The notes under the pieces are model-generated. The model saw only the letters and a list, made by a program, of their open reading frames with translations. It was not told where the DNA came from and did not search any database. A stretch of DNA of 64,000 nt from Candidatus Zhuqueibacterota bacterium (GTDB taxonomy: Bacteria; Zhuqueibacterota; Zhuqueibacteria; Oceanimicrobiales; Oceanimicrobiaceae), in NCBI GenBank assembly GCA_029262005.1, contig JAJDAG010000098.1, positions 1 to 64,000 on the forward strand, given 5' to 3'. The translations under genes were made by a program, and so were the position numbers. Below, piece by piece: positions 19,070-39,990 of the stretch (position 1 is the stretch's first letter; each line of letters begins with the position of its first letter).

Positions 19070-19174
19070 AGTGGGTTGTAATAAAACAACGACTATTCTA
19101 CTCTACTCTACTCTATTCTACTCTACTCTATTCTACTCTATTCTACTCTATTCTACTCGCGGACACAACCCACT
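19070..19174. repeat. Pentanucleotide microsatellite (CTACT/CTATT, 13 units at 19093-19157) within a 10-bp inverted repeat
   Basis: AGTGGGTTGT (19070-19079) and ACAACCCACT (19165-19174) flank the tandem array. Confidence 0.92.
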
Positions 19175-19221
19175 CGCATCGTTTACATTTTTCTCAAGCT
19201 TTCAAAAGGAGGTGATGACTA

Positions 19222-22537: not shown

Positions 22538-22637
22538 AGTGGGTTGTAATATGACAACGACTACTCTACTCTACTCTACTCTACTCTACTCTACTCTACT
22601 CTACTCTACTCTACTCTACTAGCGGACACAACCCACT
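22538..22637. repeat. Pentanucleotide microsatellite (CTACT)12 at 22561-22620 within a 10-bp inverted repeat
   Basis: AGTGGGTTGT (22538-22547) and ACAACCCACT (22628-22637) flank the array; same flanks as 19070-19174. Confidence 0.95.
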
Positions 22638-22819
22638 CGCATCGTTCTAATGCGACCATTTTTCTCACTATTGCATCGACATCGCTCATAGTTTTTTCAT
22701 AACCGACTGGAGGGGATGATGAAAAGGATTCTTATCGCAGTTGTTTTTTGTATATTGTCGAGAATTTTCCTGGATTATGGCAGTAAATCGGCTACAATAA
22801 CTCTAATAGGAATAAATCA

Positions 22820-35897: not shown

Positions 35898-36081
35898 GCT
35901 AACCTGAATTATGCATCAGCCACAGAGACACAGAGTAAAAAAAATGAGGTTAGAGTTTAAGAAAAATGAGAATGGCCAGTTTCTCTTAAAAGCTATCTTT
36001 AATGATAGCAGTTATTGTAAGTTCTGTATTCTCAACGTGCTCTGTATCTCTGTGGCAAAATTCATGAATAACGCAGGCTAA
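35898..36081. mobile_element. MITE-like non-coding element with terminal inverted repeats
   Basis: GCCACAGAGACACAGAG (35919-35935) versus CTCTGTATCTCTGTGGC (36040-36056), one mismatch, with partially matching outer sequence TAACCTGAATTAT.../...ATTCATGAATAACGCAGGCTA. Confidence 0.5.
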
Positions 36082-36157: not shown

Positions 36158-36186
36158 TTGACTTTTATATACTAGTATAGTAATAT
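36158..36186 (+). promoter_or_regulatory. Predicted sigma70-type promoter of the repeat-peptide gene
   Basis: TTGACT - 17 nt - TAATAT. Confidence 0.55.
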
Positions 36187-36191
36187 AACAG

Positions 36192-36527
36192 TGACCCGAA
36201 CAGTTTTTTTCTTGCCTTACTTAATTACTTTAGGAGAATGTAAGATGAAGAACAAACTGTTCGCCGCCGCTGTTGCAATTGTAGTATATAGTCTTTTTGC
36301 TGTGGGCTTCACAATGGCTGACAACTCAGGTCAGATTTCCCGAGGATTAACCAGGATGGGCTTGACAAGCGTAGAGGGTGAGTTTCAAGGCGCTGCCGGT
36401 AAATTAATCGATCCAATGCCTTTGCCGAGAAAACCCAAGCTAATCGATCCAATGCCGCTGCCGAGAAAGCCCAAGTGAAGAAACCATTTTTAACGAGTAT
36501 TAAATCACATTAAAGCTGTTCGGGTCA
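36192..36527. repeat. Perfect 12-bp inverted repeat bracketing the peptide gene
   Basis: TGACCCGAACAG at 36192-36203 and CTGTTCGGGTCA at 36516-36527. Confidence 0.9.
36245..36478 (+). CDS. Small secreted peptide precursor with duplicated C-terminal LIDPMPLPRKPK unit
   Basis: TAGGAGAATGTAAG-ATG; MKNKLFAAAVAIVVYSLFAVGFTMADNSGQ...GKLIDPMPLPRKPKLIDPMPLPRKPK*. Confidence 0.8.
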   Translation: MKNKLFAAAVAIVVYSLFAVGFTMADNSGQISRGLTRMGLTSVEGEFQGAAGKLIDPMPLPRKPKLIDPMPLPRKPK

Positions 36528-36529
36528 AT

Positions 36530-37609
36530 ATGTATCCAAGTATTCATTTCAAAATTCTTAATCTCACTTTATTGTTTGTTTTTTTCCTGAGTGTCATTGC
36601 ATACCTGCCTCACCAGAAGGTGCCTGTTTTGTCCTGGACCAACAATTGCCTGTACTTCCTTATGTTCTTGCAGTGTGTTTTTATATATCGTAAAGAAACC
36701 AATAACCGGGATATCTTTTTTAACATTGGTTTGCTGTGTTTTTTCTATTCGTTCAGCTTCGTCAACGTGTTCATAGGCGATGGTTACTTGCTTGGCAACG
36801 ATTTTTTGAGCTTTTACCTTTGTCAATATAGGACAATTTTGTTGAGTTTTCTTCTTGGGTTGTCTGTTCTTTACATCTGCGTAAAGTATATGGTTGCTAC
36901 TCTAAGCAAGCGGTATGTTTACTTGATTACGTTTGCCTGTATTGTTCCAGCACTGATTTGGTCTTTTTATCCGTTTTTTGTTGACAAAGATTACTTGCTG
37001 ACTTTGCCAGATTACACGGAACTATTCAAAAGTGTTTTTGTTTTTACCTTACTTTCATTTGTCGCAACCTGTGTTTATGGGATTTATTTGTATAAGAAGC
37101 AGAAGTCTCTGGGTGAACACATTAATTCTCTCATGGTCTGTTTTTTTATCATGACACTTCTCGATCTCACGGACTCGTTTGGGTACGTTTACAAAATTAA
37201 ATTATTTTCAATCAGCCAGTATGTTCTTTTGGCGATACTTAGCTTTTTTATAATAACTCTTTTTCGCAAACTCAATTATGTTTATTCTGAGTTTGGCCAA
37301 TTCTATGAAAGCCTCGTCGTTTCCGGAAACAAATATGGTGTGCCGATCAAGCGTAAAAAAGATATTGTTATTAGTCCGTTCCTGAGATTTTTCGAGACTT
37401 ACTTTCACCATCGCAGGAACATTCTTGGGCTAATCGCCTTGATTTTGGTTGTGTGGATAAATTTTTTGCATGTTTCCACTTTTCTCAAACTGAACCTTGT
37501 TGTTGCTTTTACTGCTTTCTTAATTCTATCTGGTTATATGCTCGCTTTGCTACACAAGAGAATGAGCAAGGACAACCTCTTGAGCCTGAAGCAGCACACA
37601 GATTACTAA
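36530..37609 (+). CDS. Multi-TM receptor/sensor-like membrane protein without a recognisable output domain
   Basis: 359 aa with many hydrophobic segments (about 7 N-terminal plus 2 near the C-terminus). Confidence 0.75.
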   Translation: MYPSIHFKILNLTLLFVFFLSVIAYLPHQKVPVLSWTNNCLYFLMFLQCVFIYRKETNNRDIFFNIGLLCFFYSFSFVNVFIGDGYLLGNDFLSFYLCQYRTILLSFLLGLSVLYICVKYMVATLSKRYVYLITFACIVPALIWSFYPFFVDKDYLLTLPDYTELFKSVFVFTLLSFVATCVYGIYLYKKQKSLGEHINSLMVCFFIMTLLDLTDSFGYVYKIKLFSISQYVLLAILSFFIITLFRKLNYVYSEFGQFYESLVVSGNKYGVPIKRKKDIVISPFLRFFETYFHHRRNILGLIALILVVWINFLHVSTFLKLNLVVAFTAFLILSGYMLALLHKRMSKDNLLSLKQHTDY

Positions 37610-37638: not shown

Positions 37639-38610
37639 ATGTCCATGGAACGGTCTACGAGTCACCCCCTGACAACCTTTAAAATTACTGGTTCCAGCCA
37701 AGAAACAAAACGTATTCAACGCGCAGTCCGTAAGTTTGCCAAAGATGAAAAAAATATTCTTCTTGTAGGCGATGTTGGAACCGGAAAAAAACATGTTGCC
37801 CGGACGATACATCACCTGAGTAATCGACAGGACAAAGCATTTGTTGTTTTGAACTGTTCGGCCCTGGGATATACGATCGATAGAATCGCATTGCTGGGAG
37901 AGGAGCAGGAAACAGGCGGGGGAATCAAAAAAAAACTCGGGTTGCTGGAAAAAGCAAATGGAGGTGTTCTTTTTCTTGATAATCTGCTCGAAACCCCTGC
38001 TGCTTTTCAAGTTTTACTCTTGCAAATATTACAGAAACTTACGTTCAGACGGGAAGGTGGACGTCAAAACGTTGCGTTGGACATTCGCGTGATTTCCTCT
38101 GCGGTACAAAAATTGGATACTAATGCTGGGGAAGAGCGATTCAGAAAAGAGCTGTATTTTTTACTCAATCCGCTTTCCATTATGATTCCGACTCTGAAGG
38201 AGCGAGTGCAGGATACCCCTGAGCTACTGCTTTTCTTTTTGAGATCATACTGTTTTAAGAATCAGCTCGAAATACCGGCAGTGCCCGCAGAAATTTTTGG
38301 CTCTATGATGGAACATGAGTGGAAAGGTAACATCCGAGAACTGAAGGATTGCGTTGAGCATTTAACCATGATGTCACCGCCGGCTGAGCTTTCAATAAAA
38401 TACCTGCCTTTTGAAATCAAGCGCCACCCTCTGGACAGTCTCGATATTAAAGATTTGAATACAGTTGTGGCTGAAGTTGAGACATATATGCTCAATAAAG
38501 CACTTACCAAGTTTACCGGGAATCAAGTCAAAGCAGCAAAATTGCTTGGCATTCCCGAGGCGACTTTGCGCTTTAAGATTCGAAAATACTCAATCCCGAA
38601 ACACCGCTAA
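37639..38610 (+). CDS. NtrC-family AAA+ regulator, degenerate, with Fis-type HTH
   Basis: Walker A GDVGTGKK, Walker B-like GGVLFLDNL, WKGNIRELKDCVEHL, HTH NQVKAAKLLGIPEATLRFKIRKY; no GAFTGA motif; likely start 37639 rather than 37453. Confidence 0.8.
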   Translation: MSMERSTSHPLTTFKITGSSQETKRIQRAVRKFAKDEKNILLVGDVGTGKKHVARTIHHLSNRQDKAFVVLNCSALGYTIDRIALLGEEQETGGGIKKKLGLLEKANGGVLFLDNLLETPAAFQVLLLQILQKLTFRREGGRQNVALDIRVISSAVQKLDTNAGEERFRKELYFLLNPLSIMIPTLKERVQDTPELLLFFLRSYCFKNQLEIPAVPAEIFGSMMEHEWKGNIRELKDCVEHLTMMSPPAELSIKYLPFEIKRHPLDSLDIKDLNTVVAEVETYMLNKALTKFTGNQVKAAKLLGIPEATLRFKIRKYSIPKHR

Positions 38611-38857
38611 GCTGCAACCATCCTATTTTGCTTGGCTTCTCAACGCCCTCCATTTCACTATCAGGAAAACTTTTTCTTCTCCGGACCACAAAAACAAACT
38701 CACGGAATCTTTATTCTCTCAGGTACGAACGCGCAAAGCATCAACAACAGCCGTTCGCGTTTCGCATGTCTTTGGCGCCTCAAGTGAACATTATTGACAA
38801 CCGATAATGAGTTGGACGATACAAATCCAAAATTTAATTTCACTTGAGGATAAGTTT

Positions 38858-39328
38858 ATGCAAAATGTTATGATTGTTGATGACGAAGAAGATATTGTTA
38901 GCCTGATGTCCGAAACACTTAGCCTGTGGGGCTACAATCCTGTATGTGCAAAGGACGGTGAGGAGGCTTTGGATAGATTTCAGGAAACACCCATTGATCT
39001 TGTTATAACCGATCTCAAGCTTCCGAAGATGGACGGGGTTGAGTTGTTATATAGAATCAAGGATATTGATGAAGAAGCTGAGGTGATCGTCTTTACCGGA
39101 TACCCGGAAGTGAATTCAGCAATCGGCGCAATGAAAAACGGTGCATTTGACTACCTTACCAAACCCGTAGATCTTTCAGAATTGAAGCTAAAGGTGGAAC
39201 GTGGGTTGGAAAAAAAGAACTTAGGTAAAAGTGTCAAGACTTTGAAAGGCCTGAATTGGGCAATGGTTGTCTCGATACCGCTTTGGCTGGGGTTAGGAAT
39301 CCTGCTCGCCTATGTGCTCAAAATGTAA
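38858..39328 (+). CDS. Response-regulator receiver domain with C-terminal TM helix
   Basis: MIVDDEEDIVSLM, DLVITDLKLPKMDG, FTGYPEVNSAI, KPVDLSELK; tail WAMVVSIPLWLGLGILLAYVLKM. Confidence 0.88.
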   Translation: MQNVMIVDDEEDIVSLMSETLSLWGYNPVCAKDGEEALDRFQETPIDLVITDLKLPKMDGVELLYRIKDIDEEAEVIVFTGYPEVNSAIGAMKNGAFDYLTKPVDLSELKLKVERGLEKKNLGKSVKTLKGLNWAMVVSIPLWLGLGILLAYVLKM

Positions 39329-39345: not shown

Positions 39346-39990
39346 TCAATAACTTGACGCCGTTTTTTGGGGGAAAACAAAAATTAGAATTGAGCCGGCA
39401 AGAAAGCCACCGATGTGGGCCCAGAATGCCACTCCGCCTCCTTCCATACCAATTGAGTCCAATCCAGCAAACAACTGCATGACAAACCAGAATCCAAGGA
39501 CGATGAGTGCCGGAATTGGACGTATGGTAAAGAAAAAGAAAATCGGAATGACGACGATGACCCGTGCCCGCGGGTATTTTACTAAATAAGCTCCCAGAAC
39601 ACCAGCGATTGCTCCGCTTGCCCCCACCATCGGCACGTCCACGGCACCGCCAAGCAAGATGTGTCCCAACACGGCGACCAAACCGCAGAGAAAATAGAAG
39701 GCGACAAATTGGATGTGGCCGAGGTAGTGTTCAATATTGTCTCCAAAAATCCAGAGGTAGAGCATGTTGCCAATAATATGCATGAAGCCGCCATGCAAAA
39801 ACATGGAGGTGAAGAGTGTTTCCAATCGTTGTCCATGCAAAATTGATGATGGAACTGCTCCAAATCGACTGATTACATGCGCGAATCCATATTTCAGTTC
39901 GAGACCGAAGACAATAATATTGATGGCAATGAATACGATTGTGAAAATCGGTGTAGAAGTTCGAGGATTGTCATCTTTTAGCGGAATCAT
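39346..39990 (-). CDS. Rhomboid-family intramembrane serine protease
   Basis: HGGFMHIIGNMLYLWIFG, GASGAIAGVLGAY, HIGGFLAG. Confidence 0.93.
   Translation of the reverse strand: MIPLKDDNPRTSTPIFTIVFIAINIIVFGLELKYGFAHVISRFGAVPSSILHGQRLETLFTSMFLHGGFMHIIGNMLYLWIFGDNIEHYLGHIQFVAFYFLCGLVAVLGHILLGGAVDVPMVGASGAIAGVLGAYLVKYPRARVIVVIPIFFFFTIRPIPALIVLGFWFVMQLFAGLDSIGMEGGGVAFWAHIGGFLAGSILIFVFPQKTASSY

Follow-up and report, generated by a model that had tools for sequence, protein, structure and literature searches.

The window analysed here, a 64,000 nt stretch of a Candidatus Zhuqueibacterota genome (contig JAJDAG010000098.1, positions 1–64,000), carries a cassette of three genes in fixed order: a small precursor, a multi-spanning transmembrane (TM) protein of about 360 aa, and an NtrC-like AAA+/Fis-HTH regulator. 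Three short sites, which can pair with each other at the RNA level, lie around the first gene. The features are as follows.

36158–36186, + strand: sigma70-like promoter, TTGACT-17-TAATAT, recognised from sequence; putative transcription start downstream
36192–36207, + strand: site 1, TGACCCGAACAGTTTT, putative mRNA 5' end; 16-bp complement of site 3, with covariation across relatives
36232–36236, + strand: Shine-Dalgarno (SD) sequence AGGAG of the peptide gene, recognised from sequence; AGGAG-like in relatives too
36245–36478, + strand: peptide precursor, 77 aa, predicted to be secreted; open reading frame with homologues in relatives
36245–36319, + strand: signal-peptide-like segment, by inspection (KNK n-region, hydrophobic core, T-M-A/D); predicted cleavage after TMA
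36254–36263, + strand: site 2, AAACTGTTCG, starting at codon 4 and able to pair with site 1 in place of site 3; marked by codon constraint and a hairpin z of -3.24
36404–36439, + strand: peptide unit 1, LIDPMPLPRKPK, from sequence, Tandem Repeats Finder and pN/pS comparison
36440–36475, + strand: peptide unit 2, LIDPMPLPRKPK, on the same evidence
36512–36527, + strand: site 3, AAAGCTGTTCGGGTCA, ending 2 nt short of the TM start codon, the usual SD position; from pairing and covariation
36530–37609, + strand: 359-aa multi-TM protein, the proposed receptor, from homology searches and an AF2 model; family without a database name
37639–38610, + strand: AAA+ protein (NtrC/PspF-like, no receiver, no GAFTGA) with a Fis-type HTH; putative start 37639 from alignment

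The likeliest precursor start is the ATG at 36245, behind the SD sequence, rather than the GTG at 36191 obtained by a mechanical call. The original prediction for this locus was of a signal-peptide-like N-terminus followed by two 12-codon units that encode one and the same peptide. Both parts hold: the N-terminus reads MKNKLFAAAVAIVVYSLFAVGFTMA followed by DNSG and is signal-peptide-like by inspection, and the two units differ at four nucleotides (TTA/CTA, CCT/CCG, TTG/CTG, AAA/AAG), all four of them silent, with the TGA stop codon (36476–36478) directly after unit 2. Tandem Repeats Finder called the same array independently. If four substitutions fell at random in this 36-mer, the chance of all being silent would be 0.0016 under a uniform model and 0.005 under a transition-biased one.

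Precursors and cassettes in relatives

Searches with the 359-aa TM protein returned close matches from Caldithrix sp. and candidate division KSB1, and a profile search of genome contigs with the family alignment returned six loci, all KSB1/Caldithrix. Within the phylum (candidate division KSB1/Caldithrix relatives), the TM gene is present in 28–29 of 82 genomes; no plasmid or phage match was found for it. Clustering of neighbouring genes shows that the TM and AAA+/HTH genes co-occur in about 30 loci, the regulator nearly always next and the precursor in front, while the other flanking genes differ from locus to locus. Stop codons or frameshifts break the TM genes of loci L054, L074, L069 and L068 in several assemblies; errors of assembly, gene decay or phase change may account for them.

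Homologues of the precursor occur in genomes of the same family. From the DNA preceding each TM gene, 29 precursors were read, so that the open reading frame, whose possible absence from relatives had been a concern, has homologues at the same position. No recognised precursor was found by the TM gene in four loci of family f10 (L060, L062, L064—truncated at its contig end—and L065), nor in L063 and L069; in two of the f10 loci, L062 and L065, an rRNA boxA-like sequence, GTTCTTTGAAAA, lies upstream of the TM gene. All 29 precursors combine a hydrophobic, by inspection signal-like N-terminus with a proline-rich C-terminal core, of which IDPTPRPP, DPVPEPKRP, RDPMPPPxKKPKPRR, MPGPxGxPPDT, INPNPLPxPPDTLN and NIPVPPPPYPEP are examples. 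In most comparisons of close relatives, conservation is higher in the core than in the linker (0.90 versus 0.30 for L050/L052).

Tandem arrays occur in five of the 29 precursors: two copies in the window, five in L048, eight in L049, four in L051, and five full copies (six if a partial one is counted) in L068. Because the repeat unit differs from locus to locus, these arrays suggest separate expansions. Across all five, pS is 0.31–0.75; pN of the cores is 0 in four arrays and 0.018 in L048, and in L049 an 8-aa core is repeated identically eight times between variable 9-aa spacers. The units of the homologues are thus not diverging freely at the protein level, and five separate arrays with near-invariant cores and (nearly) silent-only variation support the predicted selection for several copies of one short peptide product.

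Three genomes (G003, G004 and G005) each hold two paralogous cassettes with different, clade-specific peptides. In the TM protein tree, one cassette from each forms a clade (support 100/98) whose peptides share RDPMPPPxKKPKPRR and are unlike those of the second cassette in the same three genomes; peptide type thus tracks the clade of the proposed receptor, not the genome.

The original prediction placed the precursor among multi-copy signalling or RiPP-like peptides. Its signalling half agrees with the constant presence of a membrane protein and a regulator beside the precursor; its RiPP half is not supported, in that neighbour clustering found no conserved modification enzyme there, only the TM and AAA+/HTH genes being kept. 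Neither is a dedicated exporter or protease conserved with the cassette. The short, cationic, proline-rich units of family f1 are similar to the proline-rich antimicrobial peptides of insects, a class whose members derive in some cases from multi-copy precursors. An antimicrobial role, in which the TM protein would confer immunity, is nevertheless highly improbable: many precursors are neutral or acidic (L056, L076, L079), nearly every complete cassette includes a DNA-binding regulator, and exporter or toxin neighbours are absent.

A second alternative concerns the fate of the precursor. It may stay anchored by its N-terminal helix, the periplasmic proline-rich tail acting as a tethered subunit or inhibitor of the TM protein and the repeats, which look like multivalent P-x-x-P ligands, adding avidity. 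The hydrophobic N-terminus is conserved, and the cleavage site is weak in L050, L052 and L070; in many precursors, however, a signal-peptidase site is plausible (T-M-A, T-V-A or S-W-A), and the basic residues between units resemble processing sites. Cleavage is itself a prediction; we consider permanent tethering rather improbable.

The membrane protein and the regulator

The TM protein has no significant relative in Pfam, NCBIfam, PADLOC or the PDB, by sequence or by fold, and 21 TM homologues carry no Pfam or NCBIfam domain, hence no recognisable histidine kinase domain. Its AF2 model (pLDDT 84, pTM 0.83) has about 10 TM helices; Foldseek against the PDB gave nothing significant, the best matches being peptide GPCRs (E 0.06, TM-score 0.36). 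Loop charges suggest that both termini are cytoplasmic, as is, probably, a segment near residues 253–295. From operon position only, we infer that the protein is a receptor. An exosortase was also considered and rejected: a single match to TIGR04178 is sub-threshold (16.6 versus 23 bits) and comes without the conserved Cys or catalytic residues. The 29 precursors, likewise, do not qualify as exosortase/PEP-CTERM substrates, for they have no C-terminal TM segment of the PEP-TM-basic tripartite signal.

The regulator matches Sigma54_activat and HTH_8. It is like the PspF/NtrC enhancer-binding proteins in pairing an AAA+ domain with a Fis-type HTH, and like PspF in its size and missing receiver. 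It departs from them in its motifs: (i) GAFTG, the sigma54 contact, is found in none of 30 copies, (ii) the Walker-B DE is found in none either, and (iii) the Walker-A GK is kept in 16 and missing from 14. Because of these losses, activation of sigma54 in the usual way is unlikely. The genome does contain rpoN; no sigma54 promoter was seen by eye near the cassette. Within the regulator, conservation is highest in the HTH, with a majority identity of 0.78 versus 0.46 for the AAA+ domain.

Predicted pairing of the leader with two start regions

Sites 1 and 3 form an inverted repeat that flanks the precursor. Across loci, site 1 lies some 20–70 nt upstream of the peptide start. In most f1 loci it follows sigma70-type -35/-10 boxes by 5–7 nt, and because of this spacing it is likely to be the mRNA 5' end in that family. 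Tandem promoters seem common within f1; in L052 (genome G005), for one, site 1 has a further look-alike, GGGCCGAACAGTTTTGTTG, some 130 nt ahead of the precursor and with a promoter-like sequence of its own. Site 3 ends 1–11 nt upstream of the TM start codon (overlapping it in two f7 loci), and the TM gene has no clear SD sequence.

Compared with 200 dinucleotide shuffles, the helix score is significant (p <= 0.02) in 18 of 29 loci. L054 shows the same 11-bp helix once its TM start is corrected, bringing the total to 19 of 29, with helices of 11–26 bp; the other 10 loci have the peptide and lack the long-range helix. Site sequences vary among groups (GACCCGAACAG; TGGGCTGGTC; GCCGGGCCCGG; AAAGATCATGTCAATTT). 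In the 13 alignable loci, covariation is 0.284 versus 0.166 ± 0.024 in shuffles (0 of 500), a figure to be read as support rather than as a P value, since the shuffles keep relatedness; 84.6% of cells are paired, versus at most 48% when the sites are slid against each other. When partners are swapped, a locus's own partner beats every partner from another family in 11 loci, the exceptions being mostly groups with a common GACCCGA core. No known RNA family in Rfam matched.

Concerted change in a pair of DNA operators would mimic such covariation. Sites 1 and 3 might be inverted operators of the Fis-HTH regulator, whose HTH is its best-conserved part, instead of strands of an RNA helix. This bears on the RNA element alone and is compatible with a ligand and receptor encoded by the cassette. 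We consider it rather improbable: the sites themselves are non-palindromic, always inverted and always abut the TM start codon; the 11-pair core contains seven G-U cells versus only three true mismatches; past the core, stretches that differ in length between loci still pair within each locus; and site 2 resembles site 3. As a genome-wide operator, site 1 was discarded, GACCCGAACAG occurring only three times in the genome, twice at this cassette.

An RNA helix over the TM start also recalls leader peptides that monitor export, of the SecM/MifM/VemP/ApdA or CutF type. Rhodobacter capsulatus CutF has a Sec signal, a proline-rich C-terminus and an RNA structure that shields the downstream SD sequence (PMC9973294), and the cassette shares this anatomy: a small protein with an export signal, a proline-rich C-terminus, and RNA structure (site 3) at the start of a downstream gene that has no clear SD of its own. 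The ribosome would slow at the proline-rich C-terminus during export and free the TM start from the structure, the peptide itself being waste. This is the strongest alternative, and still an unlikely one. Arrays of up to eight identical cores are unexpected for a C-terminal arrest motif; no RAPP, RAPG or RGPP motif occurs among the 29 precursors, and in the window unit no two prolines are adjacent, so any arrest motif would have to be of a new kind. In most loci a stalled ribosome would reach neither strand of the helix, site 3 lying tens of nucleotides downstream of the stop codon and site 1 at the 5' extremity. Ten loci, moreover, have the peptide and no helix. CutF-CutO and SecM use a local stem-loop, the cassette a long-range leader helix; the cassette also has tandem units, and the downstream genes differ: SecM-type arrest peptides precede sec/yidC, the cassette precursor an unnamed TM family that is not Sec/YidC.

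Site 1 has a second potential partner. Its pairing with site 2 encloses the SD sequence and AUG of the peptide gene. Every one of the nine f1 precursors has CTG TTC as codons 5–6 (P = 1.7e-11 given the codon usage of these loci, taken as independent); the hexamer duplicates a portion of site 3 and is able to pair with site 1. Against shuffled sequence, the start region has a more stable fold in two sets of loci, f1 (z -2.2 to -6.1) and f5/f8 (z -1.6 to -3.4); the remaining loci show no such excess, which limits the start-codon hairpin to 13 loci. For f1, folding of the full transcript prefers site 1:site 3 (probability 0.86–1.00), and folding of the 5' part alone prefers site 1:site 2; in f5/f8 the two pairings compete, with site 1:site 3 mostly ahead. 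Since site 1 has this alternative pairing over the peptide start, a reciprocal translation switch between peptide and receptor is plausible in these 13 loci, although not universal.

A putative peptide ligand, receptor and regulator

The interpretation we rank first, and hold to be slightly on the probable side, is that the cassette encodes an extracytoplasmic peptide ligand, a TM receptor and a cytoplasmic regulator. What the genomes carry directly is the silent-only variation of the repeats, the fixed trio, the clade-specific peptides, the site 1:site 3 covariation, the site 2 codon constraint and the loss of GAFTGA; export, processing, receptor binding, signal transfer and the RNA switch are predicted steps. 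The precursor would be exported through its N-terminal signal, and its C-terminal proline-rich units (in the window, two copies of LIDPMPLPRKPK) released or displayed outside the cytoplasm. There, the 359-aa membrane protein may sense the peptide and, through the cytoplasmic segment at about residues 253–295, relay the signal to the AAA+/Fis-HTH protein, which would regulate transcription without the usual sigma54 contact. The mRNA 5' end (site 1) would choose between two partners, one at the peptide start (site 2) and one in the pre-receptor sequence (site 3), and so balance translation of ligand against that of receptor.

More doubtful, though possible, is the further step that these cassettes form an undescribed peptide signalling family in which the leader is the switch strand, pairing with the start of the ligand or with the start region of the receptor. 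If true, a single RNA would determine whether a cell acts chiefly as sender of the signal or chiefly as receiver.

Peptide signalling via membrane receptors is familiar in Gram-positive bacteria; we found no description of it for phyla like KSB1, and a literature search returned nothing relevant on multi-copy bacterial pheromone precursors or KSB1 quorum sensing. The Gram-positive pheromone systems (Com, Agr, RRNPP) place a small secreted precursor beside a dedicated receptor and regulator, a layout that the cassette would share; in the cassette the peptide core is conserved, and secretion and maturation are predicted from the N-terminus of the precursor. The KSB1 cassette differs from them in that its proposed receptor has no recognisable histidine kinase, its regulator has no receiver, its precursor is sometimes multi-copy, and its phylum is another. 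The yeast alpha-factor precursor consists of a signal peptide and then tandem copies of a short peptide, a similar layout; that system is eukaryotic, however, the cassette TM protein is unrelated by sequence, and its GPCR fold match is not significant. The proposal would connect a precursor, a membrane protein and a degenerate NtrC-like regulator, each without a known role; accompanying them is a conserved RNA helix of long range that could set the ratio of ligand to receptor. The unit peptides can be read directly from genomes, and the idea is therefore testable with synthetic peptides and reporters.

Several other features of the window were observed in passing. At 19083–19181 and 22540–22644, intergenic (CTACT)12–13 arrays occupy the loop of an inverted repeat (AGTGGGTTGT...ACAACCCACTCGCATCG); they precede genes for secreted-looking proteins, occur at these two places only in the genome, and may vary in length, as a phase-variable element would. 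A MITE-like element (35919–36056) closely precedes the cassette; it has 17-bp inverted arms (GCCACAGAGACACAGAG), of which the genome contains five exact copies. On the other side, 38807–39328 encodes a response regulator receiver with a C-terminal TM-like helix in place of an output domain; it adjoins the cassette and is not conserved with it. Rhomboids release signals in some bacteria, and a rhomboid protease gene is found near the cassette on the opposite strand (39346–39990), with a clustered homologue directly upstream of the cassette in L059.
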